Below, one piece after another: positions 4,226-22,217 of a stretch of 45,059 nucleotides of DNA; position 1 is the first letter of the stretch; every line of letters starts with the position of its first letter. The stretch is from positions 1 to 45,059 of the forward strand of contig WGDP01000016.1 of assembly GCA_015493215.1 (NCBI GenBank), in the 5' to 3' direction. The translations under genes were made by a program, and so were the position numbers. Source of the stretch: Bacteroidales bacterium. GTDB lineage: Bacteria; Bacteroidota; Bacteroidia; Bacteroidales; F082. Below the pieces are notes generated by a model. That model had not been told where the DNA came from and did no database searches. It saw nothing but the letters and a program-made list of their open reading frames with translations.

Positions 4226-4260
4226 GGTTGCATATAAGCTATTTTATGCAACCATTTTTT
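4226..4260 (+). terminator. Rho-independent terminator
   Basis: GGTTGCATA-taagctattt-TATGCAACC followed by ATTTTTT downstream of the symporter. Confidence 0.7.
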
Positions 4261-4358
4261 ATGGCTTAGTGTCAAATTTCTAAAACCTATGTAAGTTTTT
4301 ATTAATTTGCGTGCTTATTTTTTGAGCCATCATTAAGCCCGATTGGATAAGCCCGCAA

Positions 4359-4913
4359 ATGCATTTTGACAAGTCGTTAATAGAAGAGTTGAAAAAAAAC
4401 AATAGAAAGGCACAAGAGTCTTTTTACAGGTTTTTTGCACCAAAAATGTTTGGTGTGTGCTTGCGTTTTTCAGCTGATAGTGATGAGGCGGAAGATATTA
4501 TGCAAGAGGGATTTATCAGGGTTTTTAGGTACATAAAAGATTACCGGGGAGATGGGTCGTTTGAAGGGTGGGTTAGAAGAACCATGGTAAACACAGCTAT
4601 CAACCATTACAAACGGCGAATAAAACGTTCTTTTACAAAGCCCATTGAGCATGCCGGTTCAGCAGCCGGGTTTAATGCCCACATTATTGAACAGATGTCG
4701 GCCAACGAACTTTTAAAAGTGATTGAAGAGTTGCCTGCCGGTTATCGAACGGTTTTTAACCTGAATATAATTGAAGGCTATACCCACAAAGAGATTGGTG
4801 AGTTGCTGGGGATTTCAGAAAACACATCAAAGTCGCAGCTGTCGAGAGCCAGGGCATCGCTGCAAAAAAAACTTGAAAAAATAAGACAAAAAGAAAACAT
4901 TGGAAACCAATAG
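4359..4913 (+). CDS. RNA polymerase ECF-type sigma factor (sigma-70 family)
   Basis: DEAEDIMQEGFIRVFRYIKDYRGDGSFEGWVRRTMVNTAINHYKR (region 2) and LPAGYRTVFNLNIIEGYTHKEIGELLGISENTSKSQLSRARASLQKKL (region 4). Confidence 0.95.
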   Translation: MHFDKSLIEELKKNNRKAQESFYRFFAPKMFGVCLRFSADSDEAEDIMQEGFIRVFRYIKDYRGDGSFEGWVRRTMVNTAINHYKRRIKRSFTKPIEHAGSAAGFNAHIIEQMSANELLKVIEELPAGYRTVFNLNIIEGYTHKEIGELLGISENTSKSQLSRARASLQKKLEKIRQKENIGNQ

Positions 4914-6270
4914 CGAACATATTAACAACCTGTTTAAACAGAAGTTTGAGGATTTTGCACCTCAGCCGCCCGAGCGCGTTTGGGCAGGTATTGCCTCTGC
5001 TTTGGACAAAGGAGTTGTTCCGTGGTACAGCACTTTACCGGCAAAAATTGTTGCCATTGTGATTGGTGCAGCTATTTTGCTTGGCGGTTATTGGTTGTTA
5101 CCCCTACAAAATACTCAACCTGATAAAAAGCCAACTATGGAGGCTGCCTATCAAAACACCACCGAAAGCAATGTTGCAATTGACACTAAAACAGATAAAA
5201 CCATTCAGCAGCAACAAAGAACGCAAAAACAAAACGAAAACAGCTATACTGCCACTCATAAAGCTGACCAAAATCGTGTTGTAAAACATACAGCATCTTC
5301 CGGTTTGATATCTGCGTCAGGTAATAACGGTACACACCACAACGAAGCTACGGCTGCTAAACCAAAAATATTAAGCAGTCAACAACCTGGAAATGCTACC
5401 ATATCCGAACAAAATTTATTGGCATCGGTTAGCAATACCGGCGAACCTTTCGCAGGCTTTTCTACTATTCAGGCAATTCCTAAAAAAACAGTTTCTCTCA
5501 ATAACAACCTTTCATTTTCAATATTAAAACCCGGTAAAGTTGAAAACAACAAGCAGTTTGTTACCCATAAAAAACAGTCCGGAAACTGGATTCTGGGCCT
5601 CTATTTTTCACCTGAGTTTATTTTTGATCCCTTCGATTCGTTAACCATTCAAAACAGCTACGCCATAAAAGTTGAGCCAACTTATTATTTTAATAATCAT
5701 TGGTTTATCCGTCCGGGAATCGGTCTGAGTTATGCAAGAGACAAGGGTTTTGTAAAAGCCGATTTTATGAGCTGGGATTATCTTGGCAGTTACGAGGATG
5801 TTGTTGACGTTACTTTTGACACCGTTGGAAATACTGTTACGCCGGTTTATCACACGCAAACCAGAGATGTTTATGATTCGATTTTGCATATAACCATCTC
5901 GGAAGAAACCAACCGGTATCTGTACCTGCAAACATCGTTGGTTTTTGGTTATCATAATCATGTAAACAAGTTTGGCTGGAGTATTTATGCCGGCTCGCAG
6001 GTAAACTTTATTCTGACTGAAAAAAGAGACAACCCCTTACAGGATAACCAGTCAGCTGTTTATTTGAAGTACAATTTGGCCAACAGGCACTCGCCGCAAT
6101 ATGGTTTAAAAATAGGTTTTGGCCTCGACTATGCCATTGCCAAAAGATGGCTGCTTTCCGTAGAGCCGGAATACAACTACTTTATAAACGGGATTAACGG
6201 CGGAGATGTTTACAACACACCGCTTTCGGGAATCGGCTTACGTTTTGGACTTATTTACACATTAAAATAA
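4900..6270 (+). CDS. Putative anti-sigma/outer-membrane beta-barrel fusion (dual-membrane-spanning architecture)
   Basis: Overlaps the sigma gene by 14 bp. N-terminal ~45 aa soluble (FEDFAPQPPERVWAGIASAL), one TM (AKIVAIVIGAAILLGGYWLLPL), ~150 aa Q/T/N-rich linker, then ~230 aa with beta-barrel character (GNWILGLYFSPEF...YAIKVEPTYYFNNHWFIRPGIGLSYA...GIGLRFGLIYTLK). Confidence 0.75.
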   Translation: METNSEHINNLFKQKFEDFAPQPPERVWAGIASALDKGVVPWYSTLPAKIVAIVIGAAILLGGYWLLPLQNTQPDKKPTMEAAYQNTTESNVAIDTKTDKTIQQQQRTQKQNENSYTATHKADQNRVVKHTASSGLISASGNNGTHHNEATAAKPKILSSQQPGNATISEQNLLASVSNTGEPFAGFSTIQAIPKKTVSLNNNLSFSILKPGKVENNKQFVTHKKQSGNWILGLYFSPEFIFDPFDSLTIQNSYAIKVEPTYYFNNHWFIRPGIGLSYARDKGFVKADFMSWDYLGSYEDVVDVTFDTVGNTVTPVYHTQTRDVYDSILHITISEETNRYLYLQTSLVFGYHNHVNKFGWSIYAGSQVNFILTEKRDNPLQDNQSAVYLKYNLANRHSPQYGLKIGFGLDYAIAKRWLLSVEPEYNYFINGINGGDVYNTPLSGIGLRFGLIYTLK

Positions 6271-6283
6271 AATATAAACACAA

Positions 6284-7849
6284 ATGTTGAAGAAATACTC
6301 AATACTATTCATTGCTCTGTTGCTGTCAGGAGTTACTGAGGTTTACGCTACTTCCAATAAACCCAACAACATTATTGTTACCGGCCAGATTATAAATAAA
6401 AAGTATGGCAACGCCATAGCCAATCACAAAGTAATTATTACCACACCTGATATTAAATCGAATGGGCAAAACTATTACAAAGAGGTTTTCACTGATGATG
6501 ACGGATTTTATTACGACACCATTAGAACCAATCTGACAAAGGGAAAGCTTGAGGTTTATACGCTTGATAAAAATCAACAAAAAATCGACTCAACGGTTTA
6601 TTATCGTTTTTTCCGAAATACGGAGATGTCGCTATTGGTTAACCTGCTTATTGATATGCCTTTTCATACCAACATATTAAAAGCCCGTTTCCGGTACGTT
6701 CAAAAACAGGGAGGAAACCGTTTTTACTACAGGTTTATCAATTTGTCATCGGGACAAAACATTGTTTCGTACAAGTGGAGTTTTGGTGATGGCACTGTTT
6801 CGTACGATAAAAATCCCGATCACACCTATTTAGGCCCAGGCATTTATCGTGTCAAGCTAATTATCCAATCAACCATGAACGGCAACCCAAGTACCAACGC
6901 CTATTCAAAAATGATTTTAATTCGCGAAAAATCTCTCTATCATGTTGGGGGGCAGGTTTTTGCCGATCTTTTTCCCATCGATCGCGGAAAAGCCTTTTTA
7001 TATTATAAAGATTCCGTTGATACTTATATTCCGGTCGATACGGTTTCGTTTGACACATTGGGATTTTACATTTTTTACAACCTTCCCAACGGCGATTATC
7101 TTATAAAAGCCCAACCCGACAGGGAATCGGAGTTTTACGGAAGCATGTGTCCTACCTATTACGGTGATGCCTTAAAATGGCAAAATTCAGAAACCTGTAA
7201 TGTTTGCTCCACCAACTGGGATTACGACATTCACCTTTTACCCGCCGAAGGACTAATAGCAGGCGAAGGAGCCATTAAAGGTAACATTTTTGTTGTTGAC
7301 AGAGGGTTGAAACGGTTTGGCCTTAGTTCGGGCGAAAATATTTCGCTCTACCTGCTTGATTCAACGGGAAACAGCATGTCTTACCTTTACACGGGCTACG
7401 ATGGCGACTTTGATTTTTCGGAAATAAATCTTTCCAAATACAAACTTTTTCCGGAGGTAACGGGTGTAAACACATCTGAAATTGAAGTTGAGTTAAATGA
7501 AGAAAACCCTCAAATCGACAACATGATTATTGAGTTAAGCCTGTCAAGTGTTGATTTTATCTTTCCCGGAAAAAAAGTTAACCGGGGGTTACTGAGCAAT
7601 CTCTATCCCAATCCATTGGCAAATGGCGAACAGGTCGTATTGTCGGTTAAATTAAAAAAGTCGCAGCAAATAACCTGTACCATTTCCGGCATTACCGGAA
7701 AAACAGTCTATTTGAACCGTTACTTTTTACAAGAAGGACAATCTGAAGTTGTTGTTCCGGCCGGTCGTTTTTCCAACGGTGTTTATGTTGTTACCATAAC
7801 AGATAAACGAGGCAATGCCGACACAAGGCAATTGGTGATAGCACGGTAG
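6284..7849 (+). CDS. Secreted PKD-domain protein with T9SS type A C-terminal sorting domain
   Basis: Signal peptide; PKD motif (YKWSFGDGTVSYDKNPDHTYLGPGIYRVKLI); C-terminus NLYPNPLANGEQVVLSV...GVYVVTITDKRGNADTRQLVIAR. Confidence 0.88.
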   Translation: MLKKYSILFIALLLSGVTEVYATSNKPNNIIVTGQIINKKYGNAIANHKVIITTPDIKSNGQNYYKEVFTDDDGFYYDTIRTNLTKGKLEVYTLDKNQQKIDSTVYYRFFRNTEMSLLVNLLIDMPFHTNILKARFRYVQKQGGNRFYYRFINLSSGQNIVSYKWSFGDGTVSYDKNPDHTYLGPGIYRVKLIIQSTMNGNPSTNAYSKMILIREKSLYHVGGQVFADLFPIDRGKAFLYYKDSVDTYIPVDTVSFDTLGFYIFYNLPNGDYLIKAQPDRESEFYGSMCPTYYGDALKWQNSETCNVCSTNWDYDIHLLPAEGLIAGEGAIKGNIFVVDRGLKRFGLSSGENISLYLLDSTGNSMSYLYTGYDGDFDFSEINLSKYKLFPEVTGVNTSEIEVELNEENPQIDNMIIELSLSSVDFIFPGKKVNRGLLSNLYPNPLANGEQVVLSVKLKKSQQITCTISGITGKTVYLNRYFLQEGQSEVVVPAGRFSNGVYVVTITDKRGNADTRQLVIAR

Positions 7850-8015: not shown

Positions 8016-9491
8016 ATGAGATTCATAACTATACTTTTGGGATTATTACTTTTCAACATTACCTTAAGCTTTGCGCAAAGTATCAGAAGTTTTAAAATTC
8101 ATTCTCCGGAAGATGAAACCGTTGAAGCCGGGTTGGAATTGCAACCAAATAAATACCTGTTTCTTACCCGGCATGGAGTGTTTTCAGATACTTTGAATAT
8201 GAGTTGGTGGGGTATCTATGGCTACAATAGCAGGCTTTATGTTTCAGACAGTAATTTGAGTATTGAAGACTCAATTGATCTATCAATTCCAAATTACTAC
8301 ACTGTTGCATATAAAATTCAAGTAATTAGAGATACGGTTATCATATTAGGACGCGCAATTAAAACCGACTTATCAGAAGAACACATCTTTTTTTCATCAT
8401 TTACAAAGGAACTGGCTCCTATACAAACAGGAATCTTAGGAACTCAAGGTAACCATGAGCTGTTTTTTGATGCGGATACAAATTCTAAAGGAGAAATCGT
8501 AATAACTGCAATATCTGATAATTTTGCTTCGAATCATCACAATTTATTTATCGTTACAAACAACAAAAAAGAATTAATAAGTTATATTGATGACTCAACA
8601 AGTAGTGGATACGTGAGGATACATTACAGTATCGCCTCAAACACATATCATTTAATTAATGCTCAATCAGTTTCGTTTTACGATACAAATTTCTGCAAAT
8701 TAAAAGAAAAAGAGCTTCCTTTTATGAATCAATTTTTCAATCAATTCTATGTGTTGCCCGTGAATAGCTATTCGTATGCATTGCAGGGGATTGGCTTCTT
8801 TAAACGTACAAATAGGGAAAGCGGATTGGATATAAGTTATTATTTAGTTGATACCGGATTATCCGTCATCGATTCAAACTATATATATCTACCTGACTCG
8901 TTGGATAATGCAGGCGGTTTGGATTTTAAAACAACTGACTCAATATTTATGGGAGGTACACATAATACAAATTGGAGCGGGTCATTCCCCCCACAATTTG
9001 AACACGAGAACCACAGCCTTGTGTTACAGTGTTCAAATCTTTATACAAATGATATTTACTGGACAACAATATTTGCGGGTGATGGTAATTTCATGATGAA
9101 AAATCTTTTTGTAACATCTAACAATCAATGTATTGTAATGGCCACCTATTATGATTGGCAAGCTAATCCCATACAAGAACGCGACATAGTTTTATTTAAA
9201 ATTAATGATAGCGGAATGGTTACATCTTCTGATTCGAATAATGGTCAAAAGCCGGATTTTTTAGTATATCCGAATCCCGGAAAAAAAATAATACATATAA
9301 AACATAATACACCCTCGAATGTAACCTGTTATTTTAGGCTTGAAGATATAAAAGGAATTGTTGTTGCCGAACAAAAGCTAAATGGAATTTTAACAACAAT
9401 TGATATTCACTTTTTACCCAAAGGAGCTTATACCTACACTGTTTCAGATAATTGCAAAAGATTTGCAAGAGGTGTTTGGATAAAAAAATAA
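8016..9491 (+). CDS. Secreted protein of unknown function with T9SS C-terminal sorting domain
   Basis: Signal peptide MRFITILLGLLLFNITLSFAQ; C-terminus VYPNPGKKIIHIKHNTPSNVTCYFRLEDIKGIVVAEQKLNG...KGAYTYTVSDNCKRFARGVWIKK. Confidence 0.8.
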   Translation: MRFITILLGLLLFNITLSFAQSIRSFKIHSPEDETVEAGLELQPNKYLFLTRHGVFSDTLNMSWWGIYGYNSRLYVSDSNLSIEDSIDLSIPNYYTVAYKIQVIRDTVIILGRAIKTDLSEEHIFFSSFTKELAPIQTGILGTQGNHELFFDADTNSKGEIVITAISDNFASNHHNLFIVTNNKKELISYIDDSTSSGYVRIHYSIASNTYHLINAQSVSFYDTNFCKLKEKELPFMNQFFNQFYVLPVNSYSYALQGIGFFKRTNRESGLDISYYLVDTGLSVIDSNYIYLPDSLDNAGGLDFKTTDSIFMGGTHNTNWSGSFPPQFEHENHSLVLQCSNLYTNDIYWTTIFAGDGNFMMKNLFVTSNNQCIVMATYYDWQANPIQERDIVLFKINDSGMVTSSDSNNGQKPDFLVYPNPGKKIIHIKHNTPSNVTCYFRLEDIKGIVVAEQKLNGILTTIDIHFLPKGAYTYTVSDNCKRFARGVWIKK

Positions 9492-9590: not shown

Positions 9591-10046
9591 TCAATTTTCT
9601 TCAGCAAACCATTCGGCATAGGAGGTAACCGTTTCGCGCAACAACAAATATTTTAATTCGATGTTTTCGGGTAGTGCGTTTTTTAGCCGATTGGCAAAAT
9701 CCAACAGCATCATCTCGCTGGTGGGCTGATAATTGAGTAAAATTATTTTTTCATAATTTTTTTTCAACTCGGCAATTAGTGTTTCCGAAACATCACTTCG
9801 CAATACCAGTGCATGGTCGAAAGGCTTTACAATTTCTGCCCGAACAATTTTTTTCAGGTCGCCAAAATCCATTACCATTCCCCGCTTAGGATGATTTTTT
9901 TCCTCAATGGGGGAGCCAGCAACGGTAACCAACAGCTCATACGAGTGGCCGTGAATGTTTTTACAAAGCCCGTCGTAGCCCGGCAACGAATGGGCTGTTT
10001 CAAACTTAAACGCTTTGGTAATTCTTATGTACGGTTTTGAAATCAT
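9591..10046 (-). CDS. queD: 6-carboxy-5,6,7,8-tetrahydropterin synthase / PTPS family
   Basis: FKFETAHSLPGYDGLCKNIHGHSYELLVTV, GMVMDFGDLKKIV, PFDHALVL, PTSEMMLLDFANRL, LRETVTSYAEW. Confidence 0.92.
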   Translation of the reverse strand: MISKPYIRITKAFKFETAHSLPGYDGLCKNIHGHSYELLVTVAGSPIEEKNHPKRGMVMDFGDLKKIVRAEIVKPFDHALVLRSDVSETLIAELKKNYEKIILLNYQPTSEMMLLDFANRLKNALPENIELKYLLLRETVTSYAEWFAEEN

Positions 10047-11146
10047 GATGCTTTTAAAAACTTATACTGTTTAATGTACTTTCCGTCAGGGGTTGTAACA
10101 ATTAACAAATACAATCCTTTTTGATAGCTGCTTACGTCGATATTGTTTTCGTTGTGCAGTGTCCCCGATTTTATTTTTTGCCCCGACATATTAACAATAA
10201 AATAGGCAGCCTCACGGCTATCAGCATAGGTAATATGAAGTTTGTTAATCACCGGATTGGGATATACCGATAGTTTTAAATCCAGCGGATTCACCACTGC
10301 CGAAGGGTCAACCCAGATAAGGGTGATGTATTCAGGATGGTCAACAAACGGGTTGCGGTTTTGTTGGAAATCGTAAATTTTATTGTTACGGTCAAGCTCT
10401 TTTTGGCTTACGGGGTCTTCGTTGCTCCATTTTACCATAAGGTTTAAATACCAGTCTTCAAACACATGGTCGTTGGTTCCGTCAAGCACGGCATCGGCAT
10501 TGGATGAGTTGTTTTCCCAGCTGCCTATTTCATTTTCGTAGCGGGTTGCCATATAAAAATAGATGCGGGCCAAATCGCCTTTAAACTCGTCGATGGGTTC
10601 AAACGCTGTTCCCGAATACCCCGAAACATTGCTGCTGCCAAGCTTACTGCCGTTTTGCGAAGTCCAGGTGGCACTTCCCACTTCCGAATAGGGCCAGTTG
10701 CTACGTCTTCCGTTTACATAACCGTCGGTGGGCAAAATGTGAACCACATCGTTTTTCATGGGTGCGGCATTGTTAAACCAGCTTTTTGGAAAGGTATGTT
10801 CGCGGTTGTAACACGACCCTTCGCCACTGTAATTACCACATTGATCGGAACCGGCATTATATTCGTAAGGGTTGTTGCCATTGGGATTATAAGAATAAAT
10901 GTCCCAAATTTTGTTGGTGGAGTTTCCGCTGTTGGTTAGGTTTGCCGGCATTAAATCTCCGGTAAGGTAAAAAGTCCATAAGGCCGAGTAACCCTGGTCG
11001 TGATGGTCTTTAATAATGTTATAAAGAGCCGTTTTTAAGGTGTAGCCTGTTTTTCCCTGAGCGCTGTTGTAATAGCCTGCAGGCGGCTGCGAATAAGACA
11101 AAAAACCCGTTAACAGGGCAATGGTTAATATGAATAATTTTTTCAT
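10043..11146 (-). CDS. Endonuclease I family nuclease with T9SS C-terminal sorting domain
   Basis: SCYNREHTFPKSWF...MKNDVVHILPTDGYVNGRRSNWPYSEV (endonuclease I motif), C-terminus LSVYPNPVINKLHITYAD...YKFLKAS. Overlaps queD by 4 bp. Confidence 0.92.
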   Translation of the reverse strand: MKKLFILTIALLTGFLSYSQPPAGYYNSAQGKTGYTLKTALYNIIKDHHDQGYSALWTFYLTGDLMPANLTNSGNSTNKIWDIYSYNPNGNNPYEYNAGSDQCGNYSGEGSCYNREHTFPKSWFNNAAPMKNDVVHILPTDGYVNGRRSNWPYSEVGSATWTSQNGSKLGSSNVSGYSGTAFEPIDEFKGDLARIYFYMATRYENEIGSWENNSSNADAVLDGTNDHVFEDWYLNLMVKWSNEDPVSQKELDRNNKIYDFQQNRNPFVDHPEYITLIWVDPSAVVNPLDLKLSVYPNPVINKLHITYADSREAAYFIVNMSGQKIKSGTLHNENNIDVSSYQKGLYLLIVTTPDGKYIKQYKFLKAS

Positions 11147-18023: not shown

Positions 18024-18944
18024 ATGAAAAAAACCATTTTAATACTCGTAGCAATTATTTTAATTCAAAATGCAAACAGCCAAACCTATTTTCCCTTTCC
18101 AACCGATACTGCTCAATGGAATAATTTAACATGGGCACAATGGTCGCCAAGTGACTTTTGGTTGATAAATTCACAGTATAAACAGATGGGTGATACGGTC
18201 ATCAATAATTTAACCTATCACAAAGTTTTTTACTACGAGGCAAATAACCCCACATCGTACGAATATATTGGTGCCTTAAGGGAAGATACCACAAAAGACA
18301 TTTACTTTTACCCTTCCACAACCATCCTCCCAAACTATTGTGGCACTCAATTTCCCAGCGACACCACCGAGTATCTTTTATACACTTTTGACAGTTTGGT
18401 TCCGGGAATGACTTTACCCATAAACACAGGGGGTACAGAAATTAAAGTTATTGAAATTGATTCGGTTTTTCTACAAAACGCATACAGAAAAAGATATAAA
18501 ATTGAGCAAAATAGTATGTTTGGATATCAATACTGGATTGAAGGAATTGGAAGCACCAAGGATTTATTTGCCCCGTTTTCGTACGAATTTGAATGGGAAT
18601 TATACACCTTGTGTTACACTGATTCTGTTACATATTACATTAACTCACCCAATGGTGGGGATTCGTGTCATTACTCAATCCCGTTAAGTTTAGTGGAAAA
18701 TATTGACAGCAGGATAGAACTATACCCGAATCCTACATCAAAATCAATTACAATCAGGTCAAATCAGGGAAAAGATATCAAACTGATAAAGATTTACAAT
18801 TCGTTCGGGCAACTGATTATGCAAAACAAAATGGCAGGGTCATCGGCAGTAAAATTAAATATCGAAAAATTTAAACCCGGCCTGTTTGTTCTTGAAATAG
18901 ATTATGGAAACAGAAAGCAATACTTAAAATTTGTAAAGAAATAA
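18024..18944 (+). CDS. Secreted protein with T9SS C-terminal sorting domain
   Basis: Signal peptide; C-terminus IELYPNPTSKSITIRSNQGKDIKLIKIYNSFGQLIMQNKM...KPGLFVLEIDYGNRKQYLKFVKK. Confidence 0.85.
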   Translation: MKKTILILVAIILIQNANSQTYFPFPTDTAQWNNLTWAQWSPSDFWLINSQYKQMGDTVINNLTYHKVFYYEANNPTSYEYIGALREDTTKDIYFYPSTTILPNYCGTQFPSDTTEYLLYTFDSLVPGMTLPINTGGTEIKVIEIDSVFLQNAYRKRYKIEQNSMFGYQYWIEGIGSTKDLFAPFSYEFEWELYTLCYTDSVTYYINSPNGGDSCHYSIPLSLVENIDSRIELYPNPTSKSITIRSNQGKDIKLIKIYNSFGQLIMQNKMAGSSAVKLNIEKFKPGLFVLEIDYGNRKQYLKFVKK

Positions 18945-20351: not shown

Positions 20352-22217
20352 CTATCTGACAATCATTTTTTTGGAAATCGTTCTGTTACCAATGATTACA
20401 GTATAAAAATAGATGCCGGCATTAAAACCGGAGACATCTACATTAAAGGTGTAATTACCTGCTGCATTGGCAAGATGAGCCGATGAATATACCTGTTGTC
20501 CCAGCATATTATTGATGGTAAGGTTTATGGTTCCGGGCTGTTCTGTTTTAACACCAATGGCAGTAATATCGCTTGCAGGATTGGGCATGTTTTGAGATAC
20601 TTCAAATGAAACCCCTCCAACACTTTCAATCCCCACCGGCATACCATACGGTAAATAAACCATGTTGTTGTTAACCGGAGCATGATTTCCACCGGTAGGT
20701 TGAATGCTGTTACCGGGCAGATTATCAGTTTGGTATAAAATACTAAAATCAGTGCCTACACCGAGTGACGGATAGACACACTCACTGAAAAGATGAAGCA
20801 CATCACCGGTAAGGTCTTCAAAATCGCTAAAGTTTCCTTGTCCGTCAAGCTCGGTTTTGCGTGTCCAGATATGACGGTAGTTTTGCGATAATTCAGCATT
20901 GGAAAAGCCTACTGCCAGCCCTGAGTAAAAGAAAGTAACAATATTGTTTCCATTGTCATCACTTGTAACAGCTATCTGAGGCATTGATACCAAAGAGGCA
21001 AAATAAGGAGCAACACCAACAATGGTATCATCATCGTGAGGCTGAACCCATGCAGCCAGTTGGCCTTGTTGATACAACGTGGTACTTTCAACATCGGAGA
21101 ACATAATTTCATTGCCAACCTGGGTGGTGTCCAACGGATCCATATCTTCATTCCAATAAACCAAACCATCCGAATAGGGATAATAGCTCCACCCGTCGGC
21201 AGGATCGTCATCCACATGAACCTGCCGCCCGAAAGCCACATGTACTTTTCCTGCGTTATCCAAAGCAACAGCATTGTAACCATCGCCACCACCACATTGA
21301 GGAAGTGTTCCTTCGTTGCCGGTAAAAAAGGGCATTGGGCTGTTGTAAAAAGTAATTTTTTCCCAGGTATCGCCTCCGTCATACGATTTCATTACGTACC
21401 CGTCTTTTATTCCATCGAAAGCAACAAAGGCAATGGTATCGCCGTGTGGTATTGCCCAGGCATAATCGTCGCCGCCAATACCGCTGGTTTCGTCCGAACT
21501 CATCCCCGGAAGAATTACGTTTTCAGGATCCCATGTTTGTCCACCATCGGACGAACGCGAATATACCAACGCTTCGGTAAGGCCCTCATAGGTTTTGTTA
21601 AACCCGGCGCAGGCAATTATATGAATTACATCGTGGTTGGGGCCGGTTGTTATCATTCGTGCCCAGGTTAAATCCATGTTGTCGGGAGCGGGGCCTGCCA
21701 GGGTAAAATGCTGCCATTCTCCTGTGCCCTTGTGCTCGCGCCACGAAAACATCAGCCCTGTATTATTTAAAGTATGGGCAACCACAATTTCGCCATCGGC
21801 GCCATAGGGCGCTATGGAGGGCCAACCGGTTCTTACATCTTCAATGCGCGAAGTGGGCGCAGGCCCCCAGCTGGTTCCGTCAAAATAGTTGTAACCGGTT
21901 CCTCTGTCGGGAAAATTAGGTACCCCGTTTTCCGAACCCATGGTCCAAACCGCTGCCATGGTGCCATCATCAAAAACCCAAATGCGTTTCGACATGCTGG
22001 AGTTCGATTGTAAATCGTACCATGTTGTACCCACTACCTCGTCAACACCTTTGTTTTCAACATAGGGATTTGCCGGTAAAGTTGGAAGCGCATCGGCCAA
22101 ATGAATACCTGTTTTGGCAACAGTGTTAAAAAGTGCCTGATGCTTTAACTGAGCAACCTGCGAATAGGAAACGATACTCATTCCCAAAATAAAAATAAGA
22201 AATAGATGTTTTTTCAT
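20352..22217 (-). CDS. Secreted sialidase/BNR-repeat-like protein with T9SS C-terminal sorting domain
   Basis: BNR-type motifs (YSRSSDGGQTWDPENV, KSYDGGDTWEKI); C-terminus VSQNMPNPASDITAIGVKTEQPGTINLTINNMLGQQVYSSAH...ISKKMIVR. Confidence 0.85.
   Translation of the reverse strand: MKKHLFLIFILGMSIVSYSQVAQLKHQALFNTVAKTGIHLADALPTLPANPYVENKGVDEVVGTTWYDLQSNSSMSKRIWVFDDGTMAAVWTMGSENGVPNFPDRGTGYNYFDGTSWGPAPTSRIEDVRTGWPSIAPYGADGEIVVAHTLNNTGLMFSWREHKGTGEWQHFTLAGPAPDNMDLTWARMITTGPNHDVIHIIACAGFNKTYEGLTEALVYSRSSDGGQTWDPENVILPGMSSDETSGIGGDDYAWAIPHGDTIAFVAFDGIKDGYVMKSYDGGDTWEKITFYNSPMPFFTGNEGTLPQCGGGDGYNAVALDNAGKVHVAFGRQVHVDDDPADGWSYYPYSDGLVYWNEDMDPLDTTQVGNEIMFSDVESTTLYQQGQLAAWVQPHDDDTIVGVAPYFASLVSMPQIAVTSDDNGNNIVTFFYSGLAVGFSNAELSQNYRHIWTRKTELDGQGNFSDFEDLTGDVLHLFSECVYPSLGVGTDFSILYQTDNLPGNSIQPTGGNHAPVNNNMVYLPYGMPVGIESVGGVSFEVSQNMPNPASDITAIGVKTEQPGTINLTINNMLGQQVYSSAHLANAAGNYTFNVDVSGFNAGIYFYTVIIGNRTISKKMIVR

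Follow-up and report, generated by a model that had tools for sequence, protein, structure and literature searches.

In the window, a stretch of 45,059 nucleotides from a Bacteroidales bacterium (contig WGDP01000016.1), we found a three-gene cassette on the forward strand, which encodes an extracytoplasmic function (ECF) sigma factor, a protein resembling the dual membrane-spanning anti-sigma factors (Dma) of Bacteroides, and a PKD protein sorted by the type IX secretion system (T9SS). We regard the locus as a Dma cassette of divergent type with a link to T9SS; its anatomy is sound and its promoter conserved, and its signal and partner are still proposals. Computation revealed the gene order, the fold, the conserved sigma-Dma pairing, the T9SS-sorted third gene and the conserved promoter. 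The best explanation, to which we give a probability of about 0.7, is that these genes form a complete Dma-type unit for signalling across the membranes and are tied to T9SS, so that a surface event frees the sigma factor for its own operon and for weaker sites elsewhere in the genome.

The first gene (4359..4913, 184 aa) encodes, by its domain matches, a plain Das-like sigma factor of the ECF type that comprises regions 2 and 4. The Pfam matches were Sigma70_r2 (E=1e-15) and Sigma70_r4_2 (E=2e-17), the product also matched sigma70-ECF TIGR02937, placing it among ECF factors in the generic sense, and its nearest solved chains were ECF sigma factors. Its pairing with a Dma resembles what is described for ECF21 members. 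The second gene (4900..6270) starts with TTG and encodes 456 aa. Through an open reading frame (ORF) check, we confirmed the coordinates of both genes and their overlap of 14 bp as given by the initial annotation, in which the third gene and the shared promoter were missing. No FecR, STN or TonB-receptor domain was matched through Pfam in the three cassette genes, which thus do not fall among FecR/FecA systems.

Relatives were collected as a clade set of 59 loci, obtained from the window's family and from a scan of genome contigs, all of them from uncultured metagenome-assembled genomes with Bacteroidota or related names. The scan used a 15-member Dma alignment; a 38-member diverse profile was too variable. 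The gene directly upstream of Dma encoded an ECF sigma factor in all 58 clade loci having upstream DNA. The same held for nearly all of the roughly 40 loci sampled class-wide, two of which contained no qualifying next ORF under the filter. A pairing this regular is not due to chance, and the link between sigma gene and fusion gene proposed earlier is thus conserved in relatives.

An AlphaFold2 model of the second product was built with 57 homologues, and the parts that the initial annotation had read from the letters were recovered in it. The N-terminal region (residues 1-40, 4900..5019) contained two helices (2-17 and 25-36) and a P-P-x-x-x-W motif, of which P23 and W28 were invariant and P24 was kept in at least 90% of the homologues. 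This region is presumed to bind the sigma factor, and both the motif and the helices fit such a role. The single inner-membrane helix (residues 46-66, 5035..5097) was modelled at 48-65, coinciding with a hydropathy peak of 2.2 at residue 50. It was followed by a disordered, periplasm-crossing linker (residues 67-225, 5098..5574), for which about 150 aa rich in Q/N/T had been described; all its 159 residues were below 50 in predicted local distance difference test (pLDDT) and 51% were Q/N/T/S/K. The linker sequence was unconserved (Jensen-Shannon score, JS, 0.17) and its length ranged from 142 to 197 residues across the homologues, so that a part variable in sequence and always at least 142 residues long fits a tether role.

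The C-terminal part (residues 229-455, 5584..6264) matched PF13568 OMP_b-brl_2 above cutoff (E=1e-7) and was confidently modelled as a barrel of eight strands, the strand count being our own reading of DSSP and loop spacing. Top Foldseek matches included OmpA, Ail, NspA and OmpW, and we predict an OmpA/OmpW-like barrel of the outer membrane, in agreement with the barrel-like domain first suggested. Of the refuting findings that the initial annotation had named, a missing barrel and an unconserved sigma pairing did not arise. When the Dma profile was searched against PDB sequences, all matches were coiled or of low complexity. Among the class-wide relatives, three (L235, L240 and L250) had a Dma-like N-terminus, a transmembrane helix and an upstream sigma gene, with no recognisable C-terminal barrel; L240 contained a PKD-like segment in its place, and the genes after L235 and L250 carried T9SS type B sorting domains.

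Conservation in the barrel was highest in a long beta-hairpin of 60 residues (281-340, 5740..5919), with a mean JS of 0.59 against 0.49 for the remainder (permutation p=1e-4). It is built from strands 3 and 4, which are continuous (268-309 and 312-355) and extend far past the membrane in the model. Considering the strand order and a cytoplasmic N-terminus, the hairpin would be placed outside the cell. The span around it (273-346) was 72-74 residues in the clade, a near-fixed length. Surface loops usually show the opposite pattern, and the conservation together with the fixed length suggests a conserved partner, for which the third-gene product is the natural candidate. This fixed length and conservation stand inside this clade only. 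Hairpin length was also considered as a mark of T9SS coupling and was rejected, as the span ranged from 27 to 92 residues class-wide with or without a T9SS neighbour.

The third gene (6284..7849, 521 aa) begins 14 bases past the Dma gene. Its product is predicted to be a secreted surface protein composed of a hydrophobic N-terminal helix, PKD, a CarboxypepD_reg-like domain and a T9SS type A sorting domain (PF18911, PF00801, PF18962 and TIGR04183), with a mean AlphaFold2 pLDDT of 84. The hydrophobic N-terminus is MLKKYSILFIALLLSGVTEVYA, with a helix at 4-15 in the model, and may act as a Sec signal peptide. The sorting domain is at the C-terminus (7601..7837; PF18962 1.7e-7, and TIGR04183), which classes the protein as T9SS type A cargo. 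The third gene adjoined Dma in 58 of the 59 clade loci with downstream DNA, and PF18962 was present in every complete copy of the clade (54/54) and in 36 of 38 in the wider set of relatives. The window's own genome contained at least 150 T9SS sorting-domain matches, roughly 5% of its genes if an estimated total of about 3,300 is assumed. In L147 the third gene seemed to be lost, but this was an artefact of ORF calling, since tblastn found the gene intact. As for a conserved fourth gene, none was found for the window-type cassette, except a tandem second cassette in about 18-19 loci.

Upstream of the sigma gene we found an ECF-type promoter, TGCAACC-N16-TGTCA (4247..4274), 84 nt before the ATG. 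The form TGCAAC[C/T]-N16-TGTC[A/T] or a near form was detected upstream of sigma in 54 of 57 clade loci, with a spacer of exactly N16 in 53 of these, and mostly at about 80 or about 200 nt 5' of the ATG. Shuffled controls came nowhere near the frequency of the motif; the best 5+5 dyad was found in 28/57 loci against 4 in shuffles. In the own genome, an exact match to TGCAACC-N16-TGTCW occurred once, at 4247-4274 of the window. The AAC/GTC layout is usual for ECF promoters, and autoregulation of the cassette from this site is therefore likely, as judged from the motif. Sigma-70 consensus promoters were uninformative (14 against 9.7 in shuffles). The -35 element TGCAACC also serves as the 3' arm of a dyad that resembles a terminator, GGTTGCATA...TATGCAACC followed by a T-run (window 4228-4259). 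This dyad sits behind the upstream transporter gene and is not general across the clade.

Weaker sites were revealed when one mismatch was allowed. Those that lay between genes and pointed to one were found ahead of four genes for T9SS type A cargo (C115, C120, C281 and C289) and ahead of the genes for PorP/SprF, a choice-of-anchor L protein and two proteins resembling DsbD and ResA/TlpA. T9SS sorting domains were encoded by 4 of the 10 genes downstream of these sites, compared with about 5% expected (p about 0.001). In a genome of another genus (G018), sites were found before similar PorP/SprF and DsbD genes, and a further one ahead of a gene whose match to PorU was weak. The spacers of the PorP/SprF and DsbD sites had diverged, which argues against chance for those two. 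Under the best explanation, the sigma factor of the window would probably read the weaker sites before T9SS cargo, PorP/SprF and DsbD genes. The initial annotation had left the regulon unknown, and the conserved promoter and the candidate targets improve on this. An ECF sigma gene at 102-695 of L258 (G000:C115) lies near a T9SS cargo gene (1585 on); 57 bp ahead of the ATG of this cargo gene is a site close to the consensus, TGCAACT-N16-TGTCA.

The own genome contained at least three further sigma-Dma pairs (C33, C55 and C129). The C33-type cassette also has a T9SS third gene and is the one located directly behind the window-type cassette in the tandem loci of about 18 other genomes. Its promoter, GGCAAC[C/T]-N15-[T/A/C]GTC, was present in C33 and in 17 of the 18 tandem loci (14/18 at a stricter score), and differs from the window type by one base and one spacing position. 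The pair on C129 (L211, 8784-10873), the fourth of the genome, has a T9SS gene upstream and none directly downstream, and a different barrel loop.

A surface event is relayed across two membranes to an ECF sigma factor also by FecA/FecR/FecI, where a separate TonB-dependent receptor and FecR act; that takes two proteins, whereas in the cassette a single polypeptide would fill both roles. Closer are Dma1/Das1 and Dma2/Das2 of Bacteroides thetaiotaomicron, which share the four-part layout and the adjacent ECF sigma gene (PMC13088901). The family named by the initial annotation is thus real: Dma2 shows an N-terminal sigma-binding region, a transmembrane helix, a long disordered tether and a C-terminal barrel in the same order, next to an ECF21 sigma gene, and das2 rose by a log2 fold change of 4.5 upon Dma2 loss, consistent with autoregulation (PMC13088901). 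The third gene differs, being DUF4943 or NigD there (PMC13088901) and a T9SS-sorted PKD protein here; the promoter and the candidate T9SS regulon also set the window cassette apart. Through a NigD-family search, we found loci in other families in which sigma, Dma-like and NigD genes adjoin (L204-L208). Their Dma-like barrels were homologous to the window family (hhalign 98.5%, E=1.5e-15), with sigma again directly upstream, and their hairpin span was 30-32 residues instead of 72-74. We infer from NigD linkage only that these loci may stand in for Dma1. Considering the four-part layout of Dma2 and this homology, the architecture alone is not new. What is new is the three-gene cassette, its conserved promoter and candidate targets, the paralogous promoter and the conserved hairpin.

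Other T9SS regulators share some features with the cassette. In Porphyromonas gingivalis PorXY-SigP/PorA, T9SS genes are under the control of an ECF sigma factor, to which PorA, a surface protein bearing a C-terminal domain, feeds a signal back, but the signal passes through a two-component system and no Dma takes part (PMC4800418, PMC7712824). No anti-sigma factor was found mentioned for SigP in PMC4800418, and the reported SigP motif differs in consensus from TGCAACC-N16-TGTC. The SM6 promoters of Flavobacterium psychrophilum, likewise of the ECF type, lie ahead of genes for T9SS components and of a sigma/anti-sigma pair, but no dual-membrane anti-sigma factor was identified there (PMC9723704). 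Among the open-access papers searched, we found none that treats Dma proteins and type IX secretion together as one system.

We infer from these features how sigma binding, topology, the nature of the signal, the sign of feedback and the use of weaker sites by this sigma may fit together. The short cytoplasmic N-terminal region of Dma would hold the sigma factor, and the protein would cross the inner membrane once, span the periplasm by its disordered tether and end in the eight-strand outer-membrane barrel with the conserved hairpin pointing outward. The surface event would most simply be the presence, absence or stalling of a T9SS-delivered protein, for example the third-gene product. It may change the barrel or its occupancy, upon which the sigma factor would be freed to transcribe its own operon from TGCAACC-N16-TGTCA, and probably also to act at the weaker sites ahead of genes for T9SS cargo, PorP/SprF and disulfide handling (DsbD). 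A more ambitious form, which we hold tentatively and with the odds somewhat against it, is a T9SS checkpoint in one polypeptide, where the outward hairpin reads cargo arrival and tunes cargo, PorP/SprF and disulfide genes, and duplicated cassettes are kept separate by the one-base, one-spacing promoter difference.

Several observations weigh against the T9SS-wired cassette and its wider regulon. The Dma N-terminus gave no match to Pfam anti-sigma models. Class-wide, a T9SS gene adjoined only about 10 of 40 sigma-Dma loci; this is above the 5% background (p about 2e-5), but ties the coupling to the clade rather than to Dma systems in general. The scan for weaker sites allowed an N16 spacer alone, and the own genome gave 27 one-mismatch matches against 13 for the reversed control, so that perhaps half are chance. 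The other sigma-Dma pairs of the genome could also read related promoters. It is possible, if rather doubtful, that the regulon is the own operon only and the cassette a switch for one surface protein, the weaker sites being chance or belonging to the paralogous sigmas. Such a reading overlaps with the best explanation, of which it is a restricted version. The single exact match in the genome and the distinct promoters of the paralogous cassettes favour it as well, while the recurrence of PorP/SprF and DsbD sites in another genus and the excess of T9SS sorting domains downstream speak for the wider regulon.

Less likely still is an ordinary Dma pair that, like those of Bacteroides, controls the formation of vesicles or the make-up of the envelope, with the T9SS gene as a passenger or one surface output. 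The architecture is that of Dma1/Dma2, whose deletion raises vesiculation in Bacteroides (PMC13088901), and the majority of class-wide pairs lack an adjacent T9SS gene. But the third gene is near-obligate in the clade, the candidate sites precede T9SS and Dsb genes, and NigD (PF12667, NigD_N) had no match in the own genome, so the Dma1 vesicle route via NigD is not transferable as such. The effect on vesiculation mentioned by the initial annotation is neither supported nor excluded here, and the genomic linkage points to T9SS. We consider it very unlikely that the beta domain is periplasmic instead of in the outer membrane, and the protein a single-pass anti-sigma factor which, like RseA or FecR, is controlled through regulated proteolysis. 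The three barrel-less relatives suggest that a barrel is not strictly needed, but the barrel here was modelled at high confidence and matched integral outer-membrane barrels, and the linker never falls below 142 residues.

The tie between Dma and T9SS in this clade makes testable questions of what Dma proteins sense and of how T9SS expression is matched to surface delivery, as it offers a candidate partner for the barrel, residues 281-340 as the predicted element of binding, and a list of predicted targets. The two near-identical but distinct paralogous promoters provide a natural test of ECF promoter discrimination.

The window contained further genes for T9SS type A sorting-domain proteins, one of which directly follows the cassette and is not its conserved neighbour. 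They are located at 8016-9491, 10043-11146, 18024-18944 and 20352-22217.
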